From Selenobaculum gibii (GTDB lineage: Bacteria > Bacillota > Negativicutes > ICN-92133): a stretch of 64,000 nt of DNA. The stretch is taken from the NCBI RefSeq assembly GCF_030273445.1, contig NZ_CP120678.1:1651501-1715500 (forward strand), given 5' to 3'. The first letter of the stretch is position 1, and each line of letters opens with the position of its first letter. The translations under genes were made by a program, and so were the position numbers. Shown here piece by piece: positions 14,063-57,862 of this stretch. The notes below the pieces were generated by a model that saw nothing but the letters and a program-made list of their open reading frames with translations, was not told the DNA's origin and did not search any database.

Positions 14063-14543
14063 AATCTAGGAGTAAAATAAGTTATATAGTGCTGAACCAC
14101 ACAGCTTATTTTGTATTTTAAAAGCATTTTTTATGCAAACCCGTTTCGAAGTGCATTAACTGTTAATATAAAACTCTACTCTTTCTTAATTTGTTGAGCA
14201 CAAAATAAATTATAGATCAACGGATTTTTTATAGATATTTCCTCCATCTAAACTTATAAAAAAAGTCATAATTTATATTTCCACACGTAAATATCCTATT
14301 AATTTTTAGAAAATCTTTGTTAAAAATAATTGCAAATGCAAAAGTAGAAAGAAAGAAATTTCACGGTGTCCGTCATAATTATTCAATACCAAGCCATAAT
14401 GAAACAATTGTAAATGCTATAAAATATCTATATGAAAATCGAAATGGTATCAACAACACTTTATTTAAAAGCATTGTCGATACCATTTCGTTACCGTGAT
14501 ATACGGCTCATATTGTTACCAACCTTCCGACTGGTTATATTCA
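14063..14543. other. Intergenic region left of the island
   Basis: About 480 bases without a convincing gene; a 60-codon rightward frame at 14317 starts at TTG without a ribosome site. An 11-12-bp inverted repeat (about 14440-14494, arms CGAAATGGTATC/GATACCATTTCG) is followed on the minus strand by ATTTTC. It could be the original terminator of the tRNA-Arg transcript before the island inserted. Confidence 0.35.
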
Positions 14544-14588
14544 CTGGTGCGCCTGGCACGATTCGAACGTGCGACACACGGCTTAGAA
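14544..14588 (-). repeat. att1: displaced tRNA-Arg 3' end, left island border
   Basis: 41 of 45 bases match the 3' end of tRNA-Arg(TCT) at 57703-57747, including the ACCA end and the anticodon-stem 3' side. The four differences lie in the T-stem and give GCACG/CGTGC, a perfectly paired stem, unlike the live tRNA. The similarity runs about 10 bases further left (ATATTCAC). This is the outermost border of the island and probably the original tRNA end. Confidence 0.85.
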
Positions 14589-15052
14589 GTTTTTCAGCTA
14601 TGATTTTATTGAAACTAATAGACCTTAATATAGCAAAACTACGTTAGTTTAAATAGTTTTCTTCCATATAATAGTGTTCTATCCATTTCATATTATCTTG
14701 TATTGGTGGACACAATCTGATATCCGTCCTTAAAGTTCCAACCAATTTTGTAACCTATCCATCCTTTATTTTAGCACCATCTTCGCTTTCTCTTCCGCAT
14801 GACGAAATTGTGCATTTGCAAGTTTCAAAGGTGAAACCGTCTCTATTCGTTACCAGACGGTTCTGCGTATCGGGTATAACAACGAAACAAGGCCGTTAAA
14901 ACCGTAGCAGTTCATCCCCTCTTTGAATTTCAAACTCTATTTTCTCCGCTATTCAAAATAGAGACACGTAAAAATAGTCCATTTTGTCACGATAATATCG
15001 CTAAAAAGAGTATCTCTGACTTTATTATTTTACACTTAATAGGTTTCATGTA
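14589..15052. other. Left end of element A, no gene
   Basis: The first 90 bases resemble those right of att2 (TTTTTCAGCTAT.., ..TTAATATAGCAA.., ..AAATAGTTTT..), so elements A and B share a left terminus. Further in are a hairpin AAACCGTCT/AGACGGTT (14846-14875) and a CTCTATTTT/AAAATAGAG inverted repeat (about 14936-14962), which could end transcription of the kinase operon. No open frame is credible. Confidence 0.5.
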
Positions 15053-16447: not shown

Positions 16448-16465
16448 TTAAATCACCCACCTCTT

Positions 16466-20900: not shown

Positions 20901-21529
20901 TTTTCCCCTTTAAAAATTTCATAGAAAATAAGGCCAAGTGAATAAATATCACTTTGACCTGTTATTGTTTTCCCCTCTGCTTGCTCTGGTGAACGATATT
21001 GGGGTGTAGAATAATTACAAACAGTATAATCACTATAGAATGTATCTATGAATTTACTAATACCAAAATCAATAATTTTAACAACATTATCTTGGTTGAA
21101 CATTATATTCGATGGCTTTAAATCTCTGTGTACAATATCTTTCTTATGTAAGTATTCTACTGCTCCAAGAACCTGCTCCATTAGCTCAAGCTTTGGATAA
21201 TAATCATTAATACATAAATCTTCAAAAGCTTCTTCAAAATTCTTACCGTTAACATATTCCAAAACAATATAGAATTTTTCAAGAGCGTCATCAAATCCTT
21301 TATCGATGATTTCAACAATGTTAGTGTGTTGTACTTTTTCTAGAGATTCTACTTCGCGCTGAAATATTTTTTCTTGAAGGTCGTCATTCTTTCCACAAGA
21401 ACATTTATCAAACAACTTAACGACAATAGGTGTACCATATTGATCTTCACATAAATACAGTGTAGACATATTTCCACCAGGGATTTTTCGTATAATACGA
21501 TATTGGTCATCTACCCATTTGCTAGCCAT
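17948..21529 (-). CDS. Ser/Thr protein kinase fused to SF1 (UPF1/DNA2-like) helicase
   Basis: About 1190 residues. The kinase domain (1-260) is intact: ATP Lys (VVKLF, K40), HRDLKPSN (136-143), DFG (156-158), YRSPEQ and SDIYSLG. A linker of unknown fold follows to about 560. Then comes a superfamily 1 helicase: GPPGTGKT (591-598), a long coiled coil (690-850) in place of the usual 1B insertions, DEAG (904-907), GDHKQLPP (928-935), EQYRMNP, VDAFQGRE and NVAFSRAR. Numbering is from the upstream ATG at 21535; the ATG at 21529 is better spaced from AAAGGAG. First gene of three. A phosphorylation-gated nucleic-acid motor is inferred. Confidence 0.9.
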   Translation of the reverse strand: MASKWVDDQYRIIRKIPGGNMSTLYLCEDQYGTPIVVKLFDKCSCGKNDDLQEKIFQREVESLEKVQHTNIVEIIDKGFDDALEKFYIVLEYVNGKNFEEAFEDLCINDYYPKLELMEQVLGAVEYLHKKDIVHRDLKPSNIMFNQDNVVKIIDFGISKFIDTFYSDYTVCNYSTPQYRSPEQAEGKTITGQSDIYSLGLIFYEIFKGEKIKDKDNLDISDLPEEIKDIISKMLNKETNLRYAKISEIKRDIVYTKSQLSQDKFLSLGLTKKASTLLFQYGYIDKDELPLAAAAIEKDLSGKHYIRTKRSDMNEISYDLMGKQYICICKIDNRNSKRFTIISIRFLNGAELMDRKENAYEVPYKVKISASGNRIVSTGEIDINKLIEEIMEYEKVKNQIKADNLHVKDIASKWSEILKLQRNKMEKEKCTIRYRSFTINEKENSIEVELEKDVLEIEFSPDNMLTMTMRNSIFKVYEVGFMRECKNSKMIIDLARNINIENVADSGEISISNKMFESALNRQTRALKNVRFKEIVNPTISDIIFNPEKATSRENELISAKDCKSSFIDKSKLLSLEMALSADDLFLLQGPPGTGKTTFISELVYQILKRNPQNQILIASQSHVAVDHSLTKIKELMSEIKMIRIGIKEKFSESVINYTLDAFCQEWTASVIAKCQEAVESYKAEIGIDESLQEKNNIILEIEQLSKSIEQLTEELSVIEEEKNKIDILNDKWKFINEKIISMKKLVHIKANCILGEELANIVDTFTEDIMALNNRLEEVLEESIHLSEQKDEFERKYEKINVDIESKEKDIECWKDFLCVSSGEEYDNLKVTIKNSLKENQIKYNQFSKIEGLCKAWITRVEQGDGLLQESVADATVVGATCLGIAGLGATVDLKFDWVIVDEAGKATPPEILVPIALGKKIVLVGDHKQLPPVIDENLIKQPQGNNYNITKKDLETSLFEYLEEHLNDKCKSILDEQYRMNPIIGELISQMFYDGKLISRTSKDKKSIPLKVFDNNSLVWLSTACRNDNKEEIIRSGQYYTYRNRCEAAVIFEYLLLINDELEELKLKKEVAIIAGYRAQRDLLTSIYESKYSARFNNITIEINTVDAFQGRETDIVFYSVVRSNEEGNLGFLKDARRLNVAFSRARELLIVVGNHQAVTRKIILDGQDNPFVGIMQYIYSNREDCLVEEVK

Positions 21530-22153
21530 GTCCATTTCTCCTTTAGTACTTAAAATAATTTAAGTTATAATAATTGTAGGGACGATTCTTTTGAAATAAA
21601 TAAAAAATTTTAAAAATATATCCAAATTAGCGCACCAACGGTGCAAAAGTGAATATATTACATTGCCAAAAATAGCAAAGCTGACAGAGCTAACTCAAAG
21701 TATAATCGCTAAAACAAAACTATGTAGAATCTCCCCTTCGATTTTTTCTCCACATTTTTCTTTGATTATTAGCTCAAATTCTCGTATTCTATCTAATCAT
21801 CCGTACTAAGCACAATAAATCTTGTAGCGACGTATATATGCCATTCTGTCATTATTCAACTTGATATGTCTGTTGCTGGCCCAATTTTACCTATTATAAG
21901 CTACAAATTTTTTCAATTTCCATTCTTCTAATGACTATAACATCTAAATTTGCTATAAAACAACAAAAATCCTGCCAAAATAACAAAAATTTGACAGCTA
22001 TTCTAATTTTTATTGCCATTACCAATGATATGTTTCACCTAGATTAGTTTTATAAACGCTGTAAACAAATAAAAGGTCTATTAATGAAACCACTCATTGC
22101 CTCCCTAGACCCAAAAAAGGTTCTAGCAAAATGCTAGAACCCTTGATTTCATA
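21530..22153. other. Right end of element A, no gene
   Basis: About 620 AT-rich bases between the kinase-helicase start and att2. The operon promoter must lie at the left end; TTATAAC near 21565 is a possible -10. At 22119-22142 a perfect hairpin GGTTCTAGCA/TGCTAGAACC is followed leftward by CCTTTTTT. It is a copy of the tRNA-Arg terminator found also at 31028 and 57669, so it marks the right terminus of element A. Confidence 0.5.
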
Positions 22154-22198
22154 CGGTGCGCCTAGGGCGATCCCAAAGCTCGACACACGGTTTAGAAT
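22154..22198 (-). repeat. att2: degenerate tRNA-Arg 3' end, border of elements A and B
   Basis: 38 of 45 bases match the tRNA-Arg 3' end. It is preceded by a copy of the tRNA terminator (22119-22142) and followed by a stretch similar to that right of att1. The mutations fall in the T-loop and acceptor end, as expected for a displaced copy no longer under selection. Confidence 0.85.
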
Positions 22199-27736: not shown

Positions 27737-28987
27737 TTATTGTTGTATTTCGCCAATTTCACATTCTTTTTCATTACTTTTTTTTACATGAAAATTAATC
27801 GTTTTTTCAAGTGATTTTATAGCTTCTCCCTGTAAATTGGGCAGTAAATGAGAGTACGTATTTAAAGTCATTGCAACGGTTGCGTGACCCATTCTTTCTT
27901 GCACGATTTTTGGATTCACACCCGACATCAATAATTGAGACGCGTGCGTATGACGAAGGTCATGCGCCCTAAAACTTTCACTAATTCCTACCTTTTTTAA
28001 AAGAGGTTTAAAAATTCTTCTTGTGAAGTTACTTGGATGTAGTACATTACCAAAAATATTAGTAATTACTAAATCATTTTCATGATATTTATCTCCTAAC
28101 TTTTCTTTATGAGCATTTTGCCAAGCTCTATATATTTTTAATGCTCTAATGGTAGATTCCATCAATGAAATTTGTCGCCTTGATTTTGCAGTTTTAGTAT
28201 CTTGAAAATTTAAACTTGGCTTACTCGTATTGATTGTCCTTTTCACATAGATCAATCCATTTTCCAAATCGACGCAATCCCATTTCAATCCTATTAGCTC
28301 ACCAAACCTCATCCCAGTTTCTAATGCTAAAACAATAAATATAAATGGTACTTGTCCATACTCTAATTTAAAATTTTTTGAGACTCGAATTAATTCATTC
28401 GACTGCTCAAAAGTTAAAATGTTAATTTCACTTTTTACATTTTTAAGTGCAACAGTCCCTTCCACTACATTCTTTTTAACGACACCATCTTTTTGTGCTT
28501 GATCAAGTGCTGCACGCAGATATTTTCTTGTAGCGTTTATCGTACTTGTTGAAATTCCAATTTCACCTTTACCGCCTTTTTCCAGAAGTTCATTTAGAAC
28601 ATGTTGTACCTGTACCCCTGTTAATTTTCGTATTTGCATATTACCAAGGCTGGGCTTGATATAACATCTTAGACATGACTCATATTTAGCAAATGTTTTT
28701 TCTCTAACTTTATTTTTCGCATAATTATCAAGCCAAAACTTTAGCCACTCCCAAAGAGTAATTTTTTCAAAATTGGGTAAAAGTCCATTTTCCACTTCTT
28801 TTTTCCATTGTTTACCTCTAGAAACTGCTTCACGTGCGGTTAGTGCTGAAAAACTTTTTCGCTTTGTTTTTCCTGTTTTAGGATCAAGATAGGAAAACCG
28901 TGCTTCGTAATTATTTCTTTTGGGGTTAAAAGATACTGTTCCCTCACCATGAAATCGTTTATTTGCCAAAATATCATCTACTTCCAT
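27737..28987 (-). CDS. int: Tyrosine site-specific integrase of element B
   Basis: 416 residues: N-terminal arm-binding domain (YEARFSYLDPKTGKTKRKSF), core-binding domain (about 80-170) and catalytic domain with Arg in LALETGMRFGELIGLKWD, H-x-x-R in RAHDLRHTHASQLL, His in MGHATVAMTLNTYSH and the Tyr nucleophile there. All catalytic residues are present. It lies 2 kb inside the right end of element B, and the borders att2/att3 are its expected products. The ribosome site is weak. Confidence 0.92.
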   Translation of the reverse strand: MEVDDILANKRFHGEGTVSFNPKRNNYEARFSYLDPKTGKTKRKSFSALTAREAVSRGKQWKKEVENGLLPNFEKITLWEWLKFWLDNYAKNKVREKTFAKYESCLRCYIKPSLGNMQIRKLTGVQVQHVLNELLEKGGKGEIGISTSTINATRKYLRAALDQAQKDGVVKKNVVEGTVALKNVKSEINILTFEQSNELIRVSKNFKLEYGQVPFIFIVLALETGMRFGELIGLKWDCVDLENGLIYVKRTINTSKPSLNFQDTKTAKSRRQISLMESTIRALKIYRAWQNAHKEKLGDKYHENDLVITNIFGNVLHPSNFTRRIFKPLLKKVGISESFRAHDLRHTHASQLLMSGVNPKIVQERMGHATVAMTLNTYSHLLPNLQGEAIKSLEKTINFHVKKSNEKECEIGEIQQ

Positions 28988-31062: not shown

Positions 31063-31107
31063 TGGTGCGCCTGGGGCGATTCGAACGCTCGACACACGGC
31101 TTAGAAG
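31063..31107 (-). repeat. att3: exact tRNA-Arg 3' end, border of elements B and C
   Basis: 45 of 45 bases are identical to the live tRNA-Arg 3' end (57703-57747). This is the expected attL of the youngest integration, whose integrase is at 56324-57526. Confidence 0.92.
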
Positions 31108-39155: not shown

Positions 39156-40124
39156 CTATTTTATATTCTTTTCGACCGCTAATGCTAATAATCTTTCGTT
39201 ACTTAATTCATCAATAACATAATGTCCTAATAATAAATCTAAAATTTCTTTTACTCCTCTTTTATTAGTATACGATATTTTTTTATCTTTTGTTAATGAG
39301 ATTGATAGTTCTCTATTTTTTATTATTTGGGGAATATTTTTTATATATTGTGTATATTGCTGAAATTTATTTTCAACTACCAGACTTGCCAATCTAGGTA
39401 AATAAAATCCATTGCCCTTACAATCTTCAATAAATGAGTCTGCATCTTCTAATAAACCTGCTTTCTTTATACACTCGCTATTTTCTTCAATTACCTCAAT
39501 AAAAACGTCTTTAAACCCAAAAATACTATTAAAACTATTTCTATTAATAATATAATAAATACCTTTATATAAGAATGCATCAACATGAGAATCAAAAGTT
39601 AAAATCTGCTCTTTTATTTCTTCAAGTTTATTTCCTGCAAAAATAAATTTTTGTGACCTTTTAAAAGCAGTATTAGGATGATAATACTTTTTAAACAATG
39701 TAACTTTTTCTTCTTTTTCTCCTTGATTAAAAAACATATCTAAAACAATAAAATCTATTTTTTCAAAATCTGTCTTTCGATCTACAAATTCAGGAGATTC
39801 CCCTGCAACAATATCTTGCAAAATTTCCTTGCCATTAATTACTTTTTCTTCATCAATCCATTGCAGTGAATCAGTTTGAGATGCAAGAAAATGAAATTTA
39901 CAAACATCTTTATCTTTTAAAGAAATCAATATATTTTCTATGCTTTTTTTCATTATATCATTTATAGTTTCTTCATTTCCCGATAGAAAAAAAGCCTTAT
40001 ATTTATCTCTCTTCCTTTTAGTTTTTTTAAATAAAACCAGTTTATTAGATGCCTCTTCAATATTTTTTAAACAAAAATCGCATACCTCTTCTAATTTATC
40101 CTTTTCAAAAAAAATATTACCCAT
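39156..40124 (-). CDS. kwaB: KwaB-like (DUF4868) protein of a Kiwa-type pair
   Basis: 322 residues, close to described KwaB (about 315). DFIVLDMFFNQGEKEEKVTLFKKYYHPNTAFKRSQKF, DAFLYKGIYYIINRNSFNSIFGFKDVF and LPRLASLVVENKFQQY fit the DUF4868 layout. Ribosome site GGAGG. It is followed directly by a four-helix membrane gene of KwaA size and sits beside a type I R-M operon. KwaB is the DNA-associated effector of Kiwa. The family call is by eye. Confidence 0.7.
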   Translation of the reverse strand: MGNIFFEKDKLEEVCDFCLKNIEEASNKLVLFKKTKRKRDKYKAFFLSGNEETINDIMKKSIENILISLKDKDVCKFHFLASQTDSLQWIDEEKVINGKEILQDIVAGESPEFVDRKTDFEKIDFIVLDMFFNQGEKEEKVTLFKKYYHPNTAFKRSQKFIFAGNKLEEIKEQILTFDSHVDAFLYKGIYYIINRNSFNSIFGFKDVFIEVIEENSECIKKAGLLEDADSFIEDCKGNGFYLPRLASLVVENKFQQYTQYIKNIPQIIKNRELSISLTKDKKISYTNKRGVKEILDLLLGHYVIDELSNERLLALAVEKNIK

Positions 40125-40232
40125 TTAGAACCTCCAAACATAATCTAATTTATTTTCGTATAAAAATTCAAACCATATTTTCTTGCCTAGTTAAGGGTTA
40201 TTTTTACATTATCAAAAATTTATTGTCATCTT

Positions 40233-43200
40233 TTATTCTTCATCAGGTAATTCAATATCGAATCCATCTTCAAGTACAAATTTACGAAGTAATTCATCAA
40301 TCCTAATATTTACTTTGAATAACGGAATACTTTTTCCTTCTATTTTTTCGAAGTATTCCTTTGCTTTTGTTTTATCTACCGAATTTTTCAACTCATCAAA
40401 ACGCCCATACTCATTAATGTTTGTAGCATTCACTCTAAGTCCCATTAGATTTCTTAATATCTTCTGATCCACATTAAAAACTTTAGATAAACAATAAATT
40501 TGCTCCATTTTTGCCTTATCTTGATATTCAGTAATGTAATCTCTCAATGTTTTTCCTTCTTCTACCGTGACGTCACCTCTTTGAATATCATGAAGAAAAA
40601 TATTTGCATATTTTTGTTCTTCCTGTGTTAATGTAGCAAAAGTTTTATGTAGCTCATTTAATGCTTGTTCAATAACTTCTTTAGCGGTTTCCTCCAAATG
40701 AATTAGTTTCAAATATTTATTAAAGCGAGAATTCATATAATCAGCATCAATTATACCTGTATCAATTTCAGTTAAATATCCTTCAATATTAAATGGAACA
40801 TCGTTACTACTATTCTGGTTTTCTTCATTTGTTGAACCAAATAATTCCTTATAACGTAATGCCAAAATCAAATATGTATTTTCATTAAAACCTACTTTAA
40901 CTTTTATTTTTCGTCTATCTTTTTCCTTTTTAATTTCATAAATTAACTTTTCCCATGTAAACCCTTGAATTTTAGCAGCTTCTAAATGCTCATTCAATTT
41001 TTTGAAAAGTGAGGCAAACTTTCCTCTCTCTGAATTATCATCAGGCAATTTTTCAAAATTAACAATTCCTGCATTAGTAAATACTTCACTAATTTCTTCA
41101 AAAAAGCTGTTCATCTTTTCTAAATTCTTATCAAGCTTTTGTACAAATAATCCAATCGGATTTTCGCCAGAATATTCTTTAATAGCATCATTTATATTCC
41201 TCTCCATTGTATGAGGCATACGATAATACCGAATCGTACCAAATGGTTTTTCGGGTCCAAATAAACGGTTTGTTCTTGAAAAAGCTTGAATAATATTTTC
41301 ATACCGTAAAACTTTGTCCAGATATAATGTATTTACCCATTTAGAATCAAACCCTGTAAGCATTTGGTCAACAACAATCAATAAATCAAGTTGCAGTTCA
41401 GATTTTTCTGCAATTCTTGTATATGGTGCTTTATGTGATAATCTGGCAGCAATATCTTTTTTGAATTTATCGTGAGAAGAAAGTCCAAATTTCTGTCCGT
41501 ATCTTTCATTGTAATCTTCCATGATTTCTACAAGCCCGTCCTCTTTAAAAATGCCACCATCCATATTATCTATATTGGGATCAAACAGTGCAGTTATTTT
41601 TAAATCAGGATTTTCCTTCTTTATCAAACGGTAATAATCAATCGCTTCCGGTATGCTACTGGTAGCAAAAATAGCATGAAACTTTCCTGCATGGCTTAAT
41701 GTTAACCAATTTTCAATTATATCTTTGACCACTTCCCGTTTATGATCGTTTGTTTTATATTGACTTTTGGGAATATAATCTTCAATTCCTTTTATATATT
41801 TATCATTATCATCTTTAGAGCCTGCCATGGCAATTTCACTTTTATTTAAAAACCTATAATAAACTTCTTTCTTTTTTTCATCAGCAATTGCTTCTGCTTC
41901 ATTTTTTGCTTTGGCTTGTTGTAAAGCCACTTCTTTACGTATATCAGTATCCTTAAATGTTGCCACTCTATATGTATCAAAACCCAGAACATTTTTATCA
42001 CGTATACCATCTGCAATACTATAACGATGTAGTTCATCACCAAATACTGTTGATGTGGTATTCTTTTTCTTCTGATTTTTTTCGTTAATTGGCGTACCCG
42101 TAAAGCCAAAGAAAATAGCTGACGGAAATGTTCGCTTGATCGTTATTAACATATCGCCAAAGGTTGAACGATGAGCTTCATCGACAATAAAAACAATTCT
42201 CTTTGATTTCATTAATTCTAAATCTTTATCATTTAGCCCGTCTACTTCATCTTTTATATTGCTCATTTTTTGAATTGAAGTAACGATTAAAGTATCATGC
42301 GGATTAGAGCTTTTTAATTTTGTTACCAGAACACCTGTATTTTCAGTTGACTGCACCGTTTCATTTTCATCAGCAAATCCACGATATTCTTTTAATGATT
42401 GCGTACCAAGTTCAATTCTATCCATTAAAAATATAACTTTATCTGCGTCTTTGGAGTTAGCTATTAGCTGTGCTGATTTAAAGCTTGTCATAGTTTTTCC
42501 TGAGCCTGTTGTGTGCCAAATATGTCCACCTAATAAATTATTATCGCCCCACTTTGCTTTTGCAACTTTATCTGATATTGCATTTGCTGCGTAATATTGA
42601 TAACTACGCATAACTTTTAACACACCATCTGTATCATCGGCAACAGTATAAAAACCAATTAGTTGATGTGCCATAGGGATTGATAGTAAAGAGGAAGCAA
42701 TATCTTTCCATTCATTGATAGGTTGATTGTCAAAATTAGCCCAATGAAAATAATAATCACGATTAAACTTACCATCTATTCCAGGATTAGCAAAATAAAG
42801 CGTTTCTTTTGGTTCCATTGCGACAAAAACTTGTACTAATGAAAATAGGCCAGTAAAAATTCCTTCGTGCGAATATTTTTCAATCTGATTAGTAGCTTGA
42901 CTAACGGCAATTCCATTTCTTTTTAACTCAATATGAATCACAGGCATTCCATTAATCAATAGCATTAAATCGCCACGTCGCTCATTTAAAATCTTGGATT
43001 TAGCTTTAAACTGTGGCTGCTGAGCTATTTGATAGCGACTCTGCCCTGCGGCAATTTCACTTCTATCGTATATTTTCAGGCTAACTTCTTTGCCAAAATG
43101 AAGTTCATCTACCGGATTATCTCTTGTAATCGCTACTGTTTTCCCATTGATAAACCCGTTCAATTTTAGTGGCGTTCTCAAGGTAGTAATCTGCTCAATA

Positions 43201-43397
43201 ATTTGCTGCATCTCTCCATCTGTTAAAGGAATATTATTTAATCTATCACGGTCTTTATTATTTTGATAAAGAATAGTTGCCCAATTTTTTATTAAATCTT
43301 CTTCGGTAGGATATTTTAAGATATCAGTTTCCCACCCTTTACTAAACAGTACTTTGATTAGAGCTTCTTCAAAATCTTTTTCTTTTGTAAATATCAT
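40233..43397 (-). CDS. hsdR: Type I restriction endonuclease subunit R
   Basis: 1054 residues. An N-terminal PD-(D/E)xK nuclease (GD143..E157-L-K159 in RRGDLMLLINGMPVIHIELKR) is followed by a SF2 translocase with TTGSGKT (296-302), DEAH (406-409) and GFTGTP. DRIELGTQSLKEYRGF and QMLTGFDSKWVNTLYLDK are standard HsdR motifs. The C-terminal helical domain binds the methylase. All motifs are intact, so an active restriction system is expected with hsdM and hsdS upstream. Confidence 0.95.
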   Translation of the reverse strand: MIFTKEKDFEEALIKVLFSKGWETDILKYPTEEDLIKNWATILYQNNKDRDRLNNIPLTDGEMQQIIEQITTLRTPLKLNGFINGKTVAITRDNPVDELHFGKEVSLKIYDRSEIAAGQSRYQIAQQPQFKAKSKILNERRGDLMLLINGMPVIHIELKRNGIAVSQATNQIEKYSHEGIFTGLFSLVQVFVAMEPKETLYFANPGIDGKFNRDYYFHWANFDNQPINEWKDIASSLLSIPMAHQLIGFYTVADDTDGVLKVMRSYQYYAANAISDKVAKAKWGDNNLLGGHIWHTTGSGKTMTSFKSAQLIANSKDADKVIFLMDRIELGTQSLKEYRGFADENETVQSTENTGVLVTKLKSSNPHDTLIVTSIQKMSNIKDEVDGLNDKDLELMKSKRIVFIVDEAHRSTFGDMLITIKRTFPSAIFFGFTGTPINEKNQKKKNTTSTVFGDELHRYSIADGIRDKNVLGFDTYRVATFKDTDIRKEVALQQAKAKNEAEAIADEKKKEVYYRFLNKSEIAMAGSKDDNDKYIKGIEDYIPKSQYKTNDHKREVVKDIIENWLTLSHAGKFHAIFATSSIPEAIDYYRLIKKENPDLKITALFDPNIDNMDGGIFKEDGLVEIMEDYNERYGQKFGLSSHDKFKKDIAARLSHKAPYTRIAEKSELQLDLLIVVDQMLTGFDSKWVNTLYLDKVLRYENIIQAFSRTNRLFGPEKPFGTIRYYRMPHTMERNINDAIKEYSGENPIGLFVQKLDKNLEKMNSFFEEISEVFTNAGIVNFEKLPDDNSERGKFASLFKKLNEHLEAAKIQGFTWEKLIYEIKKEKDRRKIKVKVGFNENTYLILALRYKELFGSTNEENQNSSNDVPFNIEGYLTEIDTGIIDADYMNSRFNKYLKLIHLEETAKEVIEQALNELHKTFATLTQEEQKYANIFLHDIQRGDVTVEEGKTLRDYITEYQDKAKMEQIYCLSKVFNVDQKILRNLMGLRVNATNINEYGRFDELKNSVDKTKAKEYFEKIEGKSIPLFKVNIRIDELLRKFVLEDGFDIELPDEE

Positions 43398-43422
43398 TCT
43401 CTTCTCCTGTTATAGCAAAATT

Positions 43423-44034
43423 TTACTTATTTAAGTTTTCCATTTTAAAAACGTTATAGCCTTCGTAATGATAACTAGCATCAATACCTTTCATATATAC
43501 TTCACGGTCATCAATTTTATCAGTCAAGGCTTGCTTCAATAATAACTTTATTTCTACATCTTTAATCGGACTTCTTTCCATTGCCAACAGATAATCTTCT
43601 TTATCTACCTTGCTCCAGTCAACAACACATTTTATTTCTTTTTTTAGAATTAAATCAAGCCAAATTCTCGTACTACGACCATTGCCTTCACGGAAAGGAT
43701 GAGCAACATTCATCTCAACATATTTTTCAATAATTTCATCAAAATTAGATTGAGGCATCTTATCAATATGATTAAGAGCAGCTTCAAGATACATTACAGG
43801 CACAAAACGAAAATTACCTTTTGCTATATTTACTTTACGAATCAGTCCAGCAAAATCATATAGTTCAGTAAACAAATACTTATGAATTTGAGCAAGCCCA
43901 ACAAATTTACCAACTTCAAATGTATCAAGTAACCCTGTTTCGAATAAAGCAAGAGCCTTTTTTTTGCTTAGTTTTTCTTCGATTCTTGCCAACTCAGCAG
44001 AATCGTTAATTCCTAATTTATTCTCTAAAGCCAT
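43423..44034 (-). CDS. Fic protein embedded in the type I R-M operon
   Basis: 203 residues from the ATG at 44034 (AAAGGGG site). The Fic motif HPFREGNGRSTR (112-123) is intact, and FTELYDFAGLIRKVNIAKGNFRFVPVMYLE is the flap/target-recognition part. No clear inhibitory motif is seen. It sits between hsdS and hsdR, 25 bases from hsdR. An AMP transferase in this position may guard or regulate the R-M enzyme or act as an abortive back-up; both are inference. Confidence 0.9.
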   Translation of the reverse strand: MALENKLGINDSAELARIEEKLSKKKALALFETGLLDTFEVGKFVGLAQIHKYLFTELYDFAGLIRKVNIAKGNFRFVPVMYLEAALNHIDKMPQSNFDEIIEKYVEMNVAHPFREGNGRSTRIWLDLILKKEIKCVVDWSKVDKEDYLLAMERSPIKDVEIKLLLKQALTDKIDDREVYMKGIDASYHYEGYNVFKMENLNK

Positions 44035-44050
44035 AATTGCCCCTTTCTTC

Positions 44051-45187
44051 TTAAACAAACATTTTTTCTAAACAAGATTTTTTGATATTTTTTAGTTTTT
44101 CTAACTGACGCTGATGAAGGGTGATAATGTTGTCGAGATTTTTGAAGTATACCCCTATTTGATACTGTGCCTCTACACTTGGTAGCTTAACTTCTGTTTT
44201 CAAAATATTATCATTGTATAATCTTTTGATTGTACTACCCTCAATTCCTGACCATACAGTAACCTCGTAAATATACTTCAAAAATGTATCATCAATTCTT
44301 TCATCGTGTTTTAACCATACAATATTAGAATCTTGAAAATACTCATCTTTTCCTGTAAATTCAACAGTTCTTCCAATACTCCCCGAAGCAGAAATTAAGA
44401 TTGCCCCCTTATCAGGATATGGATATTTTGATTTATATGCCTCAAAAAGTTCTCTTGAAATATACGCATCGGGTTCTGCACCAAATGTTCCAATTTTATA
44501 AAATGGAACATCTCCTTCCTCTGATGTCTGTTCCTTGAAAATTCGTTTGCACATCGCAACAGAACCTAATTCTCCAAACTTACTCTGTTCCCAAGAGTCA
44601 TTAAATCCTTTGAAACGAATTTCCGGTTTATCTTCGCCTTTTTTCGGAAACATTTTTTCTAGGCAAGACTTTTTAATATTTACTAATTTGTCATACTTAC
44701 GCTGATGAAGGGTGATAAGGTTGTCGAGGTTCCTAAAATATGTTCCAATTACTTGTTGTTCCAAATACTCAGGTACTAAAACTTCGATTTCATTTATAGC
44801 TGTTTTTGATAAACTTGGAACTCCTGTTGACTCGTCTTTCTTTCTCCAATCAATATTCTGAAAAATATCAAAAGCAAAATTAAGGTCTATATCATTCCTC
44901 GGAACTGCGTAAAATAGCGTATCTACTGTCCAAAATGGTGCTTTTAGAATGTAAGGTTTATCAATCGTTCCTTTCCTTCCAATCCCAATAGCGTCATCAT
45001 CATACGATAGAGCCTTATCTACACTTAACATATAGCCACCTGTTCCATACACAGGAATATCTCCCTCTGACAAGTGTTTATAATCTTTCCCACTGCAAAC
45101 ATCAACAACAGTTTCCAACTTACGCTGTTCCCACTCATCACTAAATTCCTTAAACCTAACCTCAGGCCTATTTTTCTTCTCAGTCAT
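44051..45187 (-). CDS. hsdS: Type I restriction specificity subunit S
   Basis: About 378 residues with two target-recognition domains, each followed by a near-identical helical spacer (NLDNLITLHQRKYDKLVNIKKSCLEKMF and NLDNIITLHQRQLEKLKNIKKSCLEKMF). WEQRK and WEQSK open each half. The start at 45187 lies just behind the hsdM stop (AAAGGTGA in the hsdM end). The two repeats at DNA level (about 44060-44150 and 44651-44740) could permit domain exchange. Confidence 0.93.
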   Translation of the reverse strand: MTEKKNRPEVRFKEFSDEWEQRKLETVVDVCSGKDYKHLSEGDIPVYGTGGYMLSVDKALSYDDDAIGIGRKGTIDKPYILKAPFWTVDTLFYAVPRNDIDLNFAFDIFQNIDWRKKDESTGVPSLSKTAINEIEVLVPEYLEQQVIGTYFRNLDNLITLHQRKYDKLVNIKKSCLEKMFPKKGEDKPEIRFKGFNDSWEQSKFGELGSVAMCKRIFKEQTSEEGDVPFYKIGTFGAEPDAYISRELFEAYKSKYPYPDKGAILISASGSIGRTVEFTGKDEYFQDSNIVWLKHDERIDDTFLKYIYEVTVWSGIEGSTIKRLYNDNILKTEVKLPSVEAQYQIGVYFKNLDNIITLHQRQLEKLKNIKKSCLEKMFV

Positions 45188-45188
45188 C

Positions 45189-47951
45189 CTATTCACCTTT
45201 TAATAGAGACTGAAATTCTCTAAGCCCTTTCATGTCAAACTCATTGCCTTCGATTTCATCAATTAAATCTGAAAGTGATATTTCTGCTTCTTTAATCTGC
45301 GTTGCAACATCCAAATAGGTAACAGCATATTTATCTGCAAGGTGCTGAATTTTCGTTACTAAATCCTTAATCATTGCTTCAGGTAAACTATGTATTGCCA
45401 AGGTTAGCGGATGAATCCACTTTTCTTCCAATAGTTCTAAAACTTGCTTGTCGGTTAGCTTTTCAATCGTTTCTTTTGTCAATAAATGAAGTTCATTACT
45501 CGCTTGTTTAACTTCTGTTTTTAGCCCTTTTTCTTCGACAAATAAATTGTTCACGCGGATTAGTTTTGCTTCCAGTGTATCTTCCGTAAAAGTTACATCT
45601 GATTGTAATTCTCTTATATAGGCACTTACTTTAGCTTTGGCATAAGTACCGTCTTTATTCGGTTCAATTTTTGACCATGACACTTGTGGATGATGTTTTA
45701 CATAGTCTTCTTTTTCCGCTTTTTTAGCTTTCGCATCTAATAATTCCATATATCCGTTCAGGGCGATAATTTCGTCATTTTCAAATTCTGCATATATTTT
45801 CTTTACTTCTTCATTTAGTTCGGCTGAAACAAAAGCAGTATTATCTTCATTTAATGCTTTGGTAGTTTCTTTTTCCTCTTCGGTTAATGATTCCAGCATT
45901 TCTTCAAATTCTGCCGTAATTTCCAAAAGTCTATTTTCTTTTTGCTTTAACATGTTCGTTTCATCTTTTAAAATAATATTTTGTACCAACTCAAATGAAA
46001 GAACATGACCTATCCAACCTTCTTGTACTTCCTGTTCTTTCCCGTCCTTTTTCTTTACAACCATATTAGGATTCACTTTTTTAGTAGCCTCAAATCCTTC
46101 TGTTTGGATAATTTCAAGGTCTACGGCAATTTTTGACCACTCGTTATCTAACAATTGATAAGATTCATATTTATCAACTAGTGATATAGATTGTAATCGG
46201 CTGAATATTTCATCAGTAAGAATAGCTTCCTCTTGCGAAATATTTAATGTTGTCATTTTTTCAATGAATTCTTGTTTTAAATATCGCGGAAAATCAGCAA
46301 ATGCACGATTAAAATTTTCAATAAAATTTTTAACATCGCGATGTTCAGTAACAGCATTCTTAATATTATCTACACCTAATGTGACGTAAGGTGTTTTATC
46401 ATCAATAAATAAGGCAGTTTTAAGATTAGGAAAAGCTCTCCAGAAAACTTCTAATTCATTAAGTTCAGCTTTTGGAATTCCACCAAACATGGAAGCATAA
46501 ATATCCCATGTTTCACTATTTTCGGATGAATCAACATACCGAGGAATATTCAAGTTATAGTCATTACTCCGAATTTCTTCAATGCTGACTTTCCGAGAGA
46601 ATTTATCTACTTCTTCCCGATTTATTACAACATCTACTATTTTCTTTATGTCTGATGCTCTTAGTTGATTACTTTTTCCGACTTTTTCAAACCCTTTAGA
46701 TGCATCGACAATCAATACGTCACTATGATCACGAACTTTTCTTAATACCATAATAATCGTAGGAATCCCTGTACCAAAGAAAATATTTGCGGGTAATCCT
46801 ATAATCGCATCAATATGATGTCCTTCAACTAAGTTTCTACGAATATTGCCTTCTTCACCACCTCTAAACAGTACACCATGAGGCAAAACGATGGTCATAA
46901 TACCATCAGATTTAACATGATATAAATCATGTAATAAAAATGCAAAATCAGCTTTGGATTTAGGTGCTACACCAAAGTTGGCATAGCGTGGATCAGTTTC
47001 TTTATTCGTAGTATCCCAAACTTGAGAATATGGCGGATTTGACACAACTGCATCTACGTGTAAAGGGTCATATGTGCCGATTGGGTCATTTTCCTCAAAA
47101 AATGGCCAGTCATCTTCTAATGTGTCCGCATTCCGCGTAACGATATTATCTGCGGAAATGCCACGCATAACTAAATTCATTCTAGTTAGATTGTAAGTAT
47201 TTGCTTTTAGTTCTTGTGCGTAGTACTTGATAGGAGATTTCGCACTTATATGTTTAGCTACCGCCTGCCCTATATTAATTAGTAATGATCCAGAACCACT
47301 TGTCGGGTCATAAATTTTTATTTCATTTCTATCTTTAAGATGATTTGCTATGATTTCCGACATTAATACCGAGACTTCATGTGGAGTATAAAATTCTCCC
47401 GCTTTTTTTCCTGCGTTAGCAGCAAACATCCCAATCAAATATTCATAAATAAACCCAACTACATCATAGCCCTGTCTGCCATTCATCGGAATATCTTTAA
47501 TAAGCTGAATTAAATCACTAATAGCTTTTGTCTGCGAACCTGAACTATCACCTAATTTACTTAGTCCTGTTTGCAACGTGTCAAAAATACGGTCAAATAC
47601 TTTCTTATGGGCAGGATTAATCAAACGATTAAATGCCGATAATGCATCTCTAACATCTGAAACATCAAAATCCCGTCCTTTTTGGAGCCAAGTGGAGAAA
47701 AGGTCATCATAAGCTATAAAATATCCGACACCATTTTGAATAAATTTTACCGTCTCTTCATCCTCTTCAGTAAGTAGCTTTATATCCTCCTGTGTAAAAT
47801 CATTTTCTTCTAAAAATTTAACTTCTTGATCCGATAAAAATTTATAAAAGATAAATCCTAAGATGTAATCCTTATATTCATTAGCTTCAATTTTGGAACG
47901 CATTTTATTTGCTGATTCCCATATTTTATTTGCAAGTTGTTGTTTATTCAT
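45189..47951 (-). CDS. hsdM: Type I restriction-modification methylase subunit M
   Basis: 920 residues. An N-terminal HsdM helical domain (ESANKMRSKIEANEYKDYILGFIFYKFLSD) is followed by the N6-adenine methyltransferase with DPTSGSG (215-221) and NPPY (305-308). Beyond about 520 there is a 400-residue extension, helical and charged, as in the long HsdM group of Firmicutes; it includes a GWIGHVLSFELVQNIIL segment. First gene of hsdM-hsdS-fic-hsdR. Confidence 0.93.
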   Translation of the reverse strand: MNKQQLANKIWESANKMRSKIEANEYKDYILGFIFYKFLSDQEVKFLEENDFTQEDIKLLTEEDEETVKFIQNGVGYFIAYDDLFSTWLQKGRDFDVSDVRDALSAFNRLINPAHKKVFDRIFDTLQTGLSKLGDSSGSQTKAISDLIQLIKDIPMNGRQGYDVVGFIYEYLIGMFAANAGKKAGEFYTPHEVSVLMSEIIANHLKDRNEIKIYDPTSGSGSLLINIGQAVAKHISAKSPIKYYAQELKANTYNLTRMNLVMRGISADNIVTRNADTLEDDWPFFEENDPIGTYDPLHVDAVVSNPPYSQVWDTTNKETDPRYANFGVAPKSKADFAFLLHDLYHVKSDGIMTIVLPHGVLFRGGEEGNIRRNLVEGHHIDAIIGLPANIFFGTGIPTIIMVLRKVRDHSDVLIVDASKGFEKVGKSNQLRASDIKKIVDVVINREEVDKFSRKVSIEEIRSNDYNLNIPRYVDSSENSETWDIYASMFGGIPKAELNELEVFWRAFPNLKTALFIDDKTPYVTLGVDNIKNAVTEHRDVKNFIENFNRAFADFPRYLKQEFIEKMTTLNISQEEAILTDEIFSRLQSISLVDKYESYQLLDNEWSKIAVDLEIIQTEGFEATKKVNPNMVVKKKDGKEQEVQEGWIGHVLSFELVQNIILKDETNMLKQKENRLLEITAEFEEMLESLTEEEKETTKALNEDNTAFVSAELNEEVKKIYAEFENDEIIALNGYMELLDAKAKKAEKEDYVKHHPQVSWSKIEPNKDGTYAKAKVSAYIRELQSDVTFTEDTLEAKLIRVNNLFVEEKGLKTEVKQASNELHLLTKETIEKLTDKQVLELLEEKWIHPLTLAIHSLPEAMIKDLVTKIQHLADKYAVTYLDVATQIKEAEISLSDLIDEIEGNEFDMKGLREFQSLLKGE

Positions 47952-48043
47952 AGTTCCTCCGATTGATTTATCTCTATATTTCTAAATAATAGTTTTATTA
48001 TTACAAATTAGCTTTTTACATAACAAAAACCTTTTATAAAATT

Positions 48044-48502
48044 CTAAATAAAAGGCAACTTTTCTCTATAATTTTTCAATTTTTCGACTTCTTCAAAATA
48101 TTGTTGTTTATTAAATGAAAATTTTCCCAGCTTATTGTATTGCCATGTTTTTCTATGTATTTGTTCAAAATCATACCATACAACAACATCTTTTCCTATA
48201 TCAATTGCTACTTCTAGTGGCCAACATTCTACACAACCACATGTACAACCGTAAATAGGAACTTTCCATTTTGTAAAATTTTTCGATAAATCCTCATACA
48301 ATTCTTTTGGAATAATTCCTATATAACTGCCTGCTAAACTTTTCTTTTTTTCTGCTGTAGCGAATGGCAACTCACATTCTTTTACCATATCAAGTAAATT
48401 TTCACCGTTTATAAAAATAGCAATTACATCATATAAACAATCATCACTTTGACAACCATCATCAAAAGAAATTTTTACAATTTTAAATTCAATCTTATCC
48501 AT
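48044..48502 (-). CDS. Hypothetical protein with conserved Cys loop
   Basis: 152 residues: a compact alpha/beta protein with YGCTCGCVECWPLEV in the middle, a motif that recurs in small proteins of unknown function, and VVVWYDFEQIHRKTWQY at the end. The Cys cluster suggests a metal site. It lies 25 bases after the PD-(D/E)xK-like gene, so the two are likely co-transcribed. Confidence 0.65.
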   Translation of the reverse strand: MDKIEFKIVKISFDDGCQSDDCLYDVIAIFINGENLLDMVKECELPFATAEKKKSLAGSYIGIIPKELYEDLSKNFTKWKVPIYGCTCGCVECWPLEVAIDIGKDVVVWYDFEQIHRKTWQYNKLGKFSFNKQQYFEEVEKLKNYREKLPFI

Positions 48503-48528
48503 TCATATATTCCTCTAAACTCTTTAGA

Positions 48529-49509
48529 TTATTCCCATAACTCATCTAGTGTTTTTGAATTTTTCAACTTCATATAAGATGTATATCTAGGCGATTGCGG
48601 TGCTTTTCCTTTTCCTCCTTTTAAAGCAATTCTTGAAATTTGTTTTAAACTACCTTTTTTGAAATTCACTATGTATTTATTGGTATCTTTATATTTTTCT
48701 ATACTTTCCACTTCCGCTATATGTGTAATCGCAGAAATCGGCGCAACCTGATAAGCTGCTATATATTTTATTTTCTCAATCATCGCTGATGAAATACGGA
48801 TGGAATACCATCTATCATTATTTAAAAACTCTTCATTAAAGCCCTCTTCTTGTGCAGGTACAACAATCGTATCTAGTTCATCATAGTCAATATTTTCGGC
48901 TAAGTCTACAATCACTTCATCTTGGAATGATGTTACTCTATGTATTTTGTCATTTCCACATGTATAGGTTTGAGCTTCAATAATATCCGTAGCAATTTTA
49001 ATTTTTGCCAAAACACTTTCAAGCTCAGGGGTTTGTTCATCAATTACAATAATCACTGCTACATCTTTGTCAAAAATCAATTTATCCAATAACTCATTAG
49101 CATTACTAAATTTTGAGTTTTTAAAAAACTCATCCAATTTTTCTTGTTTTTTCGGATCTGCATTAATCTCATCAAGTAAAATTGTTTTAATTTTATGCTT
49201 ACTAATATCAGAGGAAATTGCAAAACGCAATACTTGTTCCCCAATATGCCCATAAACATCATGACTATTAAGCTCAACTTCTACAAAATAAAGTGTTGGA
49301 TTCTCATGAAACATTAGGTCTAAATAGTATCCATCCGGTATCGCTGCACCCTTATTCGATTTACCAATTTTCTTTTTTATATCAAAGTAAATTCCTTTAT
49401 CACCAAAAATATAGTCAGAATGTTCAACAACCATTCTTTCATATTCTGCTTCCGTTTGATAGGAGTATAGGTTATATATCTTTTTCTTACTATCTATTAT
49501 TTTGTACAT
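48529..49509 (-). CDS. Putative PD-(D/E)xK-like nuclease-fold protein
   Basis: 326 residues. The N-terminal part has GAAIPDGYYLDLMFHENPTLYFVEVELNSHDVYGHIGEQVLRF: an Asp, then YFVEVEL, resembling the D...ExK core with Glu/Leu in place of Lys, as in DUF91/NucS-like proteins. The middle (VIIVIDEQTPELESVLAKI) resembles a Rossmann-like strand-helix. The C-terminal basic stretch (KGGKGKAPQSPRYTSYMKLK) may bind nucleic acid. Nuclease activity unproven. Upstream of the R-M operon in the same direction. Confidence 0.55.
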   Translation of the reverse strand: MYKIIDSKKKIYNLYSYQTEAEYERMVVEHSDYIFGDKGIYFDIKKKIGKSNKGAAIPDGYYLDLMFHENPTLYFVEVELNSHDVYGHIGEQVLRFAISSDISKHKIKTILLDEINADPKKQEKLDEFFKNSKFSNANELLDKLIFDKDVAVIIVIDEQTPELESVLAKIKIATDIIEAQTYTCGNDKIHRVTSFQDEVIVDLAENIDYDELDTIVVPAQEEGFNEEFLNNDRWYSIRISSAMIEKIKYIAAYQVAPISAITHIAEVESIEKYKDTNKYIVNFKKGSLKQISRIALKGGKGKAPQSPRYTSYMKLKNSKTLDELWE

Positions 49510-49580
49510 ATTAATCCCCCAAAAAGCTAAGATTTAAATTATGCTACACAATTTACTTTTTAAAGATATTATTTTTTTCA

Positions 49581-51416
49581 TCATTCTATCTTAAAAAAAT
49601 CTTGAATCCCCATTTTTCGCCATGCATCTAATTTCATTTGTTTTTCTTCCCGCGCTAATCGTTTTCTTTCTTCTTCCAATGATCTTAATTTTCCTTCCAT
49701 GAAAAATATAGCTTCTCTTTGCTTTCTATCTTCAATATCTGGCAATAAAATACTTTTTAAGTCTTTAGTACTTAATAGTGGAATTGCCGTTCCAGATTTT
49801 TTCTTTGACAACATGTACTGCCCTACAGGACTTTCTAAGTACATTTTTATAATTTTAGAATGAAAATAGTCATTTTTTAATCTCATCCCATAAAAATTTT
49901 GCGACAATAATATTTTTCCCTTTATATATGGAATACGACAAATTTTTGTCAATTCCCCCCTAGCCGTAATAATAATGTCATTTTCTTGCACTTCGTACAG
50001 AGATACTTTCGCATTATTAGTTATCGTATAACTTTTTAACTTATCCATTACCAACTGACCATTTTGTACATCAGCAAGGTTAATAATTTTATATTCACCA
50101 GTTTCATCTTCTTGAATTTCTTTTGTTATATTTATCCCTCGATAAACATCTACAAATTTATCTAATGATGCATACTCTTTACCGTCTGGAAATGTCGTCC
50201 AATCAAAAGATACAACGCCCACACCCTCTACCGAAATTGTCCGTTTATATACATAACGACTAGGCAGTAAATTTGCTTCTTTTATCTCGTTTATATTAAT
50301 AATACGAGATAACTCATCTTGATTTATTTTATTGCAATATATATCTACAATCTTTTGTATCTCAGTATCATCCAATATGCAATTTTTACGGTTTTGTACT
50401 CCCATGCTTTCAGCATTAATAAATAAAATTTTCTCTTTCATATTCTCTTGTTTATTTTTATTAAAAATAATTAAATTTACTGAAATTCCTGAATTTTTAT
50501 AAAGTCCCTCTGGTAAAGCTACCACAGCTTCAATGACATCATTTTCTAACATTTTTTCTCTTACACGTTGGTCTTTTCCCGTACAAAAAAGACTTCCACT
50601 AGGAACCACTATAACTCCTTTTCCATCTTCTTTTAATGCATTCAATGTATGTGATGCAAAAAGTAATTCTGCTGAACGTGCATTTGCTAATCCATATGTA
50701 AATTGACCATATTTATCTATGACAATTTCATTCTCGATATTTTTCCACGTTAATCCAAATGGAGGATTCATTAAAACTAAATCAAACTGTTTCACTCGCC
50801 CATTTTCCATTATTGGTTCTAAAATAGGATTGGCAAACCTAGTAAATGACTTACTATATTTGAGAAATTCTCTTAATCGCCAAATATCAACATTGCTTTT
50901 ATCCATATCACAGCGATAAATAATATCGTTTTGTACTTTTAACTGCATAAATTTCTCTTTACATAGTCCCATGCCAACAGCACCTAAGTATATTGATTTA
51001 TCCTCTTGATTATTGAATATCTTCATTGCTAACTTCTCAATACTAGCAGGCAGAAACTTTGTTGCTATTGATTTACTTTCTTTTATAAGTAAATCATAAA
51101 ATTCCACTAACTTATCGAAAGATATTTGATTAATTTCAGGTAATAGTTTTTCATTTACTATTTTTATTAACTCAAAATTAAAAATACTATTATTCTCATC
51201 ATACGTCAAAATATTATATTGTAGATTTATTTCTTTAAAGTGTGTATTACCTAAATCATATGCTTCACTACTGCTGATCATATTATTAAACAATGTCGTA
51301 CCATCTTCAAAATCCAGTTTTTTAATTACTAAGTATTTACCAATTAAAATTAAAGAACTTTTTTCATCTAATATCGAACATAAATTTTCTAGTAAATCCA
51401 AAACTATTTTTCTCAT
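49581..51416 (-). CDS. Solitary N6-adenine methylase fused to a specificity domain, degenerate motif I
   Basis: 611 residues. The catalytic motif NPPF is present in DLVLMNPPFGLTW, with SGISVNLIIFNKNK and VIVVPSGSLFCTGKDQRVREKMLENDVIEAVVALPEG following the HsdM pattern. A type I S-like target domain (WTTFPDGKEYASLDKFVDVYRG...; SKKKSGTAIPLLSTKDLKSILLP) forms the C-terminus. The S-adenosylmethionine motif I, expected before NPPF, reads YLGAVGMG rather than DPxxGxG. No nuclease gene is paired with it. It may be a BREX/type I-like modifier or a non-catalytic recogniser. Confidence 0.8.
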   Translation of the reverse strand: MRKIVLDLLENLCSILDEKSSLILIGKYLVIKKLDFEDGTTLFNNMISSSEAYDLGNTHFKEINLQYNILTYDENNSIFNFELIKIVNEKLLPEINQISFDKLVEFYDLLIKESKSIATKFLPASIEKLAMKIFNNQEDKSIYLGAVGMGLCKEKFMQLKVQNDIIYRCDMDKSNVDIWRLREFLKYSKSFTRFANPILEPIMENGRVKQFDLVLMNPPFGLTWKNIENEIVIDKYGQFTYGLANARSAELLFASHTLNALKEDGKGVIVVPSGSLFCTGKDQRVREKMLENDVIEAVVALPEGLYKNSGISVNLIIFNKNKQENMKEKILFINAESMGVQNRKNCILDDTEIQKIVDIYCNKINQDELSRIININEIKEANLLPSRYVYKRTISVEGVGVVSFDWTTFPDGKEYASLDKFVDVYRGINITKEIQEDETGEYKIINLADVQNGQLVMDKLKSYTITNNAKVSLYEVQENDIIITARGELTKICRIPYIKGKILLSQNFYGMRLKNDYFHSKIIKMYLESPVGQYMLSKKKSGTAIPLLSTKDLKSILLPDIEDRKQREAIFFMEGKLRSLEEERKRLAREEKQMKLDAWRKMGIQDFFKIE

Positions 51417-56323: not shown

Positions 56324-57526
56324 ATGCCAGGTTCATTGGTAGATTTAGGAAACAATAAATGGGAACTACGTGTTTCATTAGGCTACAATATCAACGGTAA
56401 ACAAATCCGTAAAACCAAAAGAATAATTTCAAAATCAAAAAAAGCAGCAGAAAAAGAGTTAGCAAAATTTTATGTAGAAGTAACAAAGAATCCAGTCATT
56501 AAAGGTGATAAAATTTCATTTGGTGAATTTATTGAAATTTGGCAGCAACGTCATAATCAAAAATTATCCAACAAGACAAGTTATCGAAATAGCGAATTGT
56601 TGAAAAATAGAATTCTACCAGCGTTTTACTCCAAACAACTAGAAAAAATAACCGATATGGATATTGTGAAATTCATTGAAGAGCTTAAAAAGCCTCATAT
56701 GAGACAAGATAAACGAAACTTAAATACATTATCTGATGGCAGTATTCAAATGCACTACAAACTAATCCGCAGTATATTAAATAAAGCTGTGCAGTGGCGT
56801 TATTTAGTTGAAAATCCCTGTCGTTTAATCGCCAAAGACGACATCCCAAAAGCAAATTATCGACGTTTACCAATTTGGCAGGAAAACGATTTAAAAAGGT
56901 TTCTTGCAACTTTAGAAAAAATAAGTAATTCACCACGTGAGCTTAAATATAAATTAATGATTAGCTTAGCCTTGATTACCGGTGCTAGACGGGGTGAATT
57001 TACAGCTTTGACTTGGGATTGTATTGATTTTGTAAATGCTAGAATTTATATTGAAAAAGCAAGTGAAGCTATAGCTAATAAGCCTCTTGCAATAAAAGTT
57101 CCCAAAACAAAATCATCTATACGCTGGTTGAATATAGATAGCTATACCGTCTCTTTGCTAAAGCTGCAAAAACAATTTCAAGATGAATTTTTAACCAAGC
57201 ATCATTATTCGAATCCAAAGCAATTTATTTTCTTATCACGAAAAGTAATTAATCAAGAAGTTAGTCAAATCTATCCTTCTAGTTTGTACATATGGCTAAG
57301 TAAGTTTTGTAAAAAATATGATTTTCCAGCCATTACTGTGCACTCATTTCGACACATGGCTGCTAGCTATGCTTTAGCCTATGGAGTTCCATTGACAACT
57401 GTTCAACATATGCTTGGACACACGGATATAAAAACGACTGCTATTTACCTTCATGAACTTGAATCTAAACGTAAAGAAGCAGTACAGATACTCTCTAAAC
57501 AATGGAATCAATTTAGAAATGCATAA
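56324..57526 (+). CDS. int: Tyrosine integrase of element C (tRNA-Arg specific)
   Basis: 400 residues: AP2-like N-terminal arm domain (NKWELRVSLGYNINGKQIRKTKR), core-binding domain, then the catalytic domain with LALITGARRGEFTALTWD (Arg), VHSFRHMAASYAL (His, Arg), MLGHTDIKTTAIYLHE (His, Tyr). AAAGGGGG site. It lies 177 bases from the 3' end of tRNA-Arg, its presumed attachment site, and looks fully functional. Confidence 0.95.
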   Translation: MPGSLVDLGNNKWELRVSLGYNINGKQIRKTKRIISKSKKAAEKELAKFYVEVTKNPVIKGDKISFGEFIEIWQQRHNQKLSNKTSYRNSELLKNRILPAFYSKQLEKITDMDIVKFIEELKKPHMRQDKRNLNTLSDGSIQMHYKLIRSILNKAVQWRYLVENPCRLIAKDDIPKANYRRLPIWQENDLKRFLATLEKISNSPRELKYKLMISLALITGARRGEFTALTWDCIDFVNARIYIEKASEAIANKPLAIKVPKTKSSIRWLNIDSYTVSLLKLQKQFQDEFLTKHHYSNPKQFIFLSRKVINQEVSQIYPSSLYIWLSKFCKKYDFPAITVHSFRHMAASYALAYGVPLTTVQHMLGHTDIKTTAIYLHELESKRKEAVQILSKQWNQFRNA

Positions 57527-57702: not shown

Positions 57703-57779
57703 TGGTGCGCCTGGGGCGATTCGAACGCTCGACACACGGCTTAGAAGGCCGTTGCTCTATCCAACTGAGCTACAGGCGC
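57703..57779 (-). tRNA. tRNA-Arg(TCT), integration target
   Basis: Full cloverleaf on the minus strand: acceptor GCGCCTG/CAGGCGC, D-arm GCTC..GAGC, anticodon arm ACGGC-CTTCTAA-GCCGT (anticodon TCT), variable GTGTC, T-arm GAGCG-TTCGAAT-CGCCC, encoded CCA. The T-stem contains an A:C mismatch (second pair). The last 45 bases are the attachment core shared with att1-att3. Confidence 0.95.
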
Positions 57780-57785
57780 GATTGA

Positions 57786-57862
57786 TGGTCGGAGCAGCAG
57801 GATTCGAACCTGCGACCCCCTGGTCCCAAGCCAGGTGCTCTACCAAACTGAGCCATGCCCCG
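57786..57862 (-). tRNA. tRNA-Pro(TGG)
   Basis: Cloverleaf with acceptor CGGGGCA/TGCTCCG, anticodon loop CTTGGGA (TGG), T-arm GCAGG-TTCGAAT-CCTGC and encoded CCA. It lies 6 bases before tRNA-Arg, in one transcript. Confidence 0.95.

Follow-up and report, generated by a model that had tools for sequence, protein, structure and literature searches.

Two T-stem alleles at a tRNA-Arg(UCU) gene bordered by an array of integrative elements in Selenobaculum gibii

Results

The tRNA-Arg(UCU) gene and the copies of its 3' half

The window, i.e. the whole stretch of 64,000 nucleotides of Selenobaculum gibii DNA analysed here, holds one tRNA-Arg(UCU) gene, three further copies of its 3' half and two tyrosine integrase genes, as follows.

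57703..57779, minus strand: live tRNA-Arg(UCU) gene, called by ARAGORN as tRNA-Arg(tct); the 3' half, 57703-57747, forms the junction with element 3
31063..31107, minus strand: att3, at the border between elements 3 and 2, with 45/45 bases as in the live 3' half
22154..22198 (about), minus strand: att2, junction of elements 2 and 1, a decayed copy of the GAGCG/CGCCC type with a terminator after it
14545..14589, minus strand: att1, best read as the border between element 1 and relic element 0, with GCACG/CGTGC as its T-stem
56324..57526, plus strand: tyrosine integrase of element 3, beside the live tRNA (Pfam Phage_integrase, 7.5e-25)
27737..28987, minus strand: tyrosine integrase of element 2 (Pfam Phage_integrase, 1e-29)

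A 37-nt core pattern gave 0 chance matches in 100 shuffles, and a genome-wide search found no fifth copy of the 3' half at its threshold. Each copy runs, in the tRNA orientation, from the anticodon loop to the CCA end, and each has a different 5' flank. Direct repeats of the tRNA 3' end are present at every element boundary (att1, att2, att3 and the live gene), and between the four copies lie three elements, which have accumulated next to the tRNA 3' end as an array of 43 kb. The T-arm of the live gene reads GAGCG-TTCGAAT-CGCCC, the single non-pair being A50 opposite C64, while that of att1 reads GCACG-TTCGAAT-CGTGC, with every stem position paired; the two 3' halves share 41/45 bases, and all four differences lie in the T-stem. 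Elements 1, 2 and 3 all have a T-stem of the GAGCG/CGCCC type (in att2, att3 and the live gene, respectively), att2 having lost stem pairing and T-loop bases by decay.

The live gene forms a full cloverleaf according to ARAGORN, which shows that an intact tRNA has been rebuilt, and since its 3' flank leads into the tyrosine integrase at 56324-57526, the live 3' half is element-supplied and belongs to element 3. These results bear out three statements of a preliminary description of this DNA, namely that the T-stem of the live tRNA-Arg has an A:C mismatch, that the outermost copy is fully paired with the rest of the 45 bases the same, and that the live 3' half came from an element. Two checks proposed there were also carried out: a whole-genome search found no other tRNA-Arg(UCU) gene, leaving the live gene as the sole copy, and the live version was predicted to be the weaker one, with energies of -2.4 vs -5.7 kcal/mol (att1 type) for the T-arm hairpin alone and -28.6 vs -31.9 kcal/mol for the whole tRNA, values that leave out base modification and tertiary contacts. 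A tRNA-Pro(UGG) gene adjoins the tRNA-Arg gene at window positions 57786-57862, and has an identical second copy at genome position C1:10477-10554.

Elements 3 and 2 each contain an integrase, and element 1 is without a recognised integrase of its own; ARAGORN found no other tRNAs inside the elements. As to their cargo, a three-gene block of element 1 (window 15053-21535) matches two defence proteins strongly, MkoA (2.3e-241) and MkoB (2.7e-80), and a further gene at 15053-16447 matches MkoA weakly. Element 3 carries, at window 39156-51416, type I restriction-modification genes together with a KwaB-like gene, and also an N-6 methylase that stands apart from them and has a specificity-like end (49581-51416).

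The DNA outside att1

In the usual anatomy of integration at the anticodon loop, the T-arm moves together with the 3' (P') flank; the principle is described in PMC4383910. Two features were recognised in the corresponding flank of att1, i.e. on the outer side of the array.

14442..14530, minus strand: P' arm of relic element 0, with arm-type repeats, the CCGTATATCA motif and a hairpin (nhmmer E 2.8e-7 and 5.6e-6)
14284..14434, plus strand: probable decayed C-terminus of the element 0 tyrosine integrase, collinear with phage integrase residues 319-370

A class-wide DNA search with this flank returned, outside its own genome, short weak matches only, after which a route through integrases and arm profiles was adopted. 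The att1 3' flank aligns with the attP arm of the circular phage contig IMGVR_UViG_3300042922_000383 with a score of 81, compared with 48 for the best of 2000 shuffles, which preserve base composition only, and 25-26 for the other flanks of the array. The integrase family of this phage adjoins tRNA-Arg(UCU) in G187, G197, G152, G023 and other genomes. In the arms of most family members, an arm-type repeat comes first, a CCGTNNNTCA-like motif follows, and a further two repeats come after it; this plan is found beside tRNA-Arg(UCU) in G187, G229, G307, G197 and G152. A P' arm profile built from four of these arms, with att1 left out, gave one significant match in the 64-kb window, at 14526-14442 (E 2.8e-7), the next match having an E of 1.6. 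The putative integrase relic scores 52 when aligned with the final 50 residues of the phage integrase, compared with at most 49 in 200 shuffles; this is weak alone, but the relic lies in the expected place, on the expected strand and at the expected spacing beyond the P' arm. As a separate observation, the tRNA-Arg(UCU) gene beside a member of this integrase family in G187 (L218:9207-9345) has a T51xT63 mismatch in its T-stem.

The DNA outside att1 is thus a P' arm and, at the position expected, a probable decayed integrase C-terminus, and not host flank. From these alignments, att1 is best read as the place where element 1 meets an older element 0, and its paired T-stem GCACG/CGTGC as borne by that older, eroded element. 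This does not agree with the earlier proposal of att1 as a remnant of the host's ancestral 3' end, displaced by 43 kb; the original 3' end of the host tRNA cannot be identified from att1. Element 0 may have arrived earlier or later than element 1, so that its allele was not necessarily ever carried by the live tRNA.

T-stem alleles in relatives

The alleles were compared across 380 genomes of the class, among which there are no genus, family or order mates of the present genome (G000). Its position was taken from single-gene Lon trees, rebuilt without most long-branch rows after a 31-row tree had placed G011 beside G000 on a very long branch. In these trees, G000 groups with G004 and G001 (support 93/91), and G013 comes next (100/99 for the four). 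Among the relatives with a readable gene, G004 is the closest; its mispaired tRNA is identical to that of G000, and an outer copy at a distance of 1.6 kb carries the same allele as its live tRNA; the assembly of G001 has no tRNA-Arg(UCU) gene. G013, which is sister to the G000-G004-G001 group, natively has GCACG/CGTGC, as do G017 and G031. In G016, a member of another order, the identical 77-nt mispaired tRNA has no element adjoining it, and is followed by a terminator, an exonuclease gene, cysK and tRNA-Arg(ACG). This looks like the native gene order without an element, as cysK and tRNA-Arg(ACG) lie downstream in G005 as well; long-ago loss of an element is possible. The two exact cassette copies in G004 (L047:7575-9240), which have ~50 nt of 3' flank in common, the terminator included, are separated by a single small gene, and no integrase lies in the interval.

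The comparison of relatives, which the preliminary description had also proposed, showed the mispaired allele in G004 and G016 and the paired one in G013, G017 and G031. An island-free relative with GAGCG/CGCCC was to count against an altered host tRNA, and G016 is one, within the limit that it belongs to another order. That att1 is nonetheless the host's own 3' end, and that an element swapped a fully paired T-arm for a mispaired one, would fit the native paired alleles of G013, G017 and G031 and the common occurrence of T-stems of this type in related families, but we consider it unlikely, given the P' arm and integrase relic on the outer flank and the mispaired allele of G004 and G016; the paired allele was possibly that of the host before element 0, but att1 cannot show so.

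The comparison also bears on whether att1 once had GAGCG/CGCCC and acquired GCACG/CGTGC by drift after its displacement. Displaced copies do decay, as att2 shows with its lost stem pairing and T-loop bases, but in att1 there are four changes, confined to the stem and leaving it perfectly paired, with the other 41 bases intact, which is not drift-like. As the outcome of these four compensated changes is the very allele native to G013, G017 and G031, drift was rejected, and the exact identity of att1 with the G013 3' half brings it close to refutation; we give it hardly any credence.

Frequency of the mispair

Among the tRNA-Arg(UCU) sequences read across the class, 56 are distinct; 48 of these have a fully paired T-stem, and a mismatch was flagged in the other eight, one of which (L063) is probably a mis-framed call. 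As six of the flagged mismatches are at 50:64, and at least 11 species of genus g34 carry A50xC64, the latter is a tolerated, recurrent variant of tRNA-Arg(UCU) in the class. It is native in other genera, so that the mispair alone is no evidence of damage. With att1 bordering element DNA and the element-free G016 having the same mismatch, there is no good sign that a mobile element damaged the host tRNA. Mispaired T-stems may be commoner beside elements.

The T-stem pairs 49:65, 50:64 and 51:63 have been reported as determinants of EF-Tu affinity (PMC11231383), and the two alleles differ at 50:64 and 51:63, so that, judged by sequence, they may differ in EF-Tu binding. These reported pairs, and the recurrence of A50xC64 in g34, could also be taken to mean that the mispaired stem is a selected adjustment of EF-Tu affinity instead of a neutral variant; this would seem rather improbable, as fully paired stems form the majority of the distinct sequences.

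A shared 45-nt cassette

The exact 45-nt cassette with GAGCG/CGCCC is found in att3, the live gene, both G004 copies, G016 and the attP of the circular phage, and 43 nt of it are found exactly in G005, where they lie 2.86 Mb away from the tRNA-Arg of G005 itself, a different one. The flanks differ among these sites, and several different elements therefore carry the cassette. It is plausible, if unproven for this genome, that elements spread the cassette into hosts with other alleles. The G005 site (L138:11828-12080) is an orphan attP-like one, with both arms (TGTCCACCAAT repeats) around the 43-nt mispaired cassette, and lies between host-like genes. Viral contigs L183-L186, which matched a relaxed pattern, were set aside because of their different T-stems.

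Discussion

We consider it highly probable that this tRNA-Arg(UCU) gene is an integration hot spot that has received at least four elements (relic 0, 1, 2 and 3), that att1 is the junction of elements 1 and 0, and that A50xC64 is a tolerated variant. In the history that we propose, tyrosine integrases would cross over in the anticodon loop, a position that we infer, and the attP of each element would bring its own 45-nt tRNA 3' half. On integration, the attP half would become the live 3' half and the previous half would move outward. Element 0 would have carried GCACG/CGTGC, and elements 1-3, in their presumed order of insertion, GAGCG/CGCCC, with an A50xC64 mispair that would be near neutral.

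Genomic islands in tRNA genes have been catalogued by Islander: the attP holds a tRNA fragment, the tRNA is restored when the element integrates, and the element ends can be told from the displaced fragments (PMC4383910). Tandem arrays are known there as well, only four arrays of three or more being given (PMC4383910). The present array shares the attP fragment, the rebuilt tRNA and the displaced fragments at element ends with those islands, but differs from them in that its successive 3' halves are not all of one allele and in that its outermost fragment borders a relic element instead of host DNA. In the tRNA-dependent lysogeny of mycobacteriophages, a tyrosine integrase likewise recombines within a host tRNA gene, but the tRNA is not rebuilt and the phage brings a whole tRNA gene (PMC10865867); here the attP half rebuilds the tRNA, and the pattern of an unrebuilt tRNA with a complete tRNA gene on the element was not seen. 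The attP of Salmonella phage epsilon34 holds the 3' end of a tRNA-Arg gene (argU), as here, but host group and sequence are different, and the match is limited to a short part of the tRNA. A literature search, covering subscription papers only in part, found no paper on T-stem replacement by elements.

A practical consequence is that an outermost att copy can pass for the original tRNA end of the host, and that the flanking arm decides. A wider reading is that the mispaired 45-nt cassette circulates on different integrative elements and a phage across several families, overwriting the host's 50:64 and 51:63, and that elements, and not host mutation, drive the evolution of the T-stem; we hold this to be possible but doubtful. 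What remains is modest, i.e. one exact mispaired 45-nt cassette on several elements, including the attP of a circular phage, swapping pairs with a role in EF-Tu affinity. Were the wider reading true, mobile elements would spread alternative T-stems of a single-copy tRNA gene, and would provide a natural test of how freely the pairs that tune EF-Tu binding can be exchanged.
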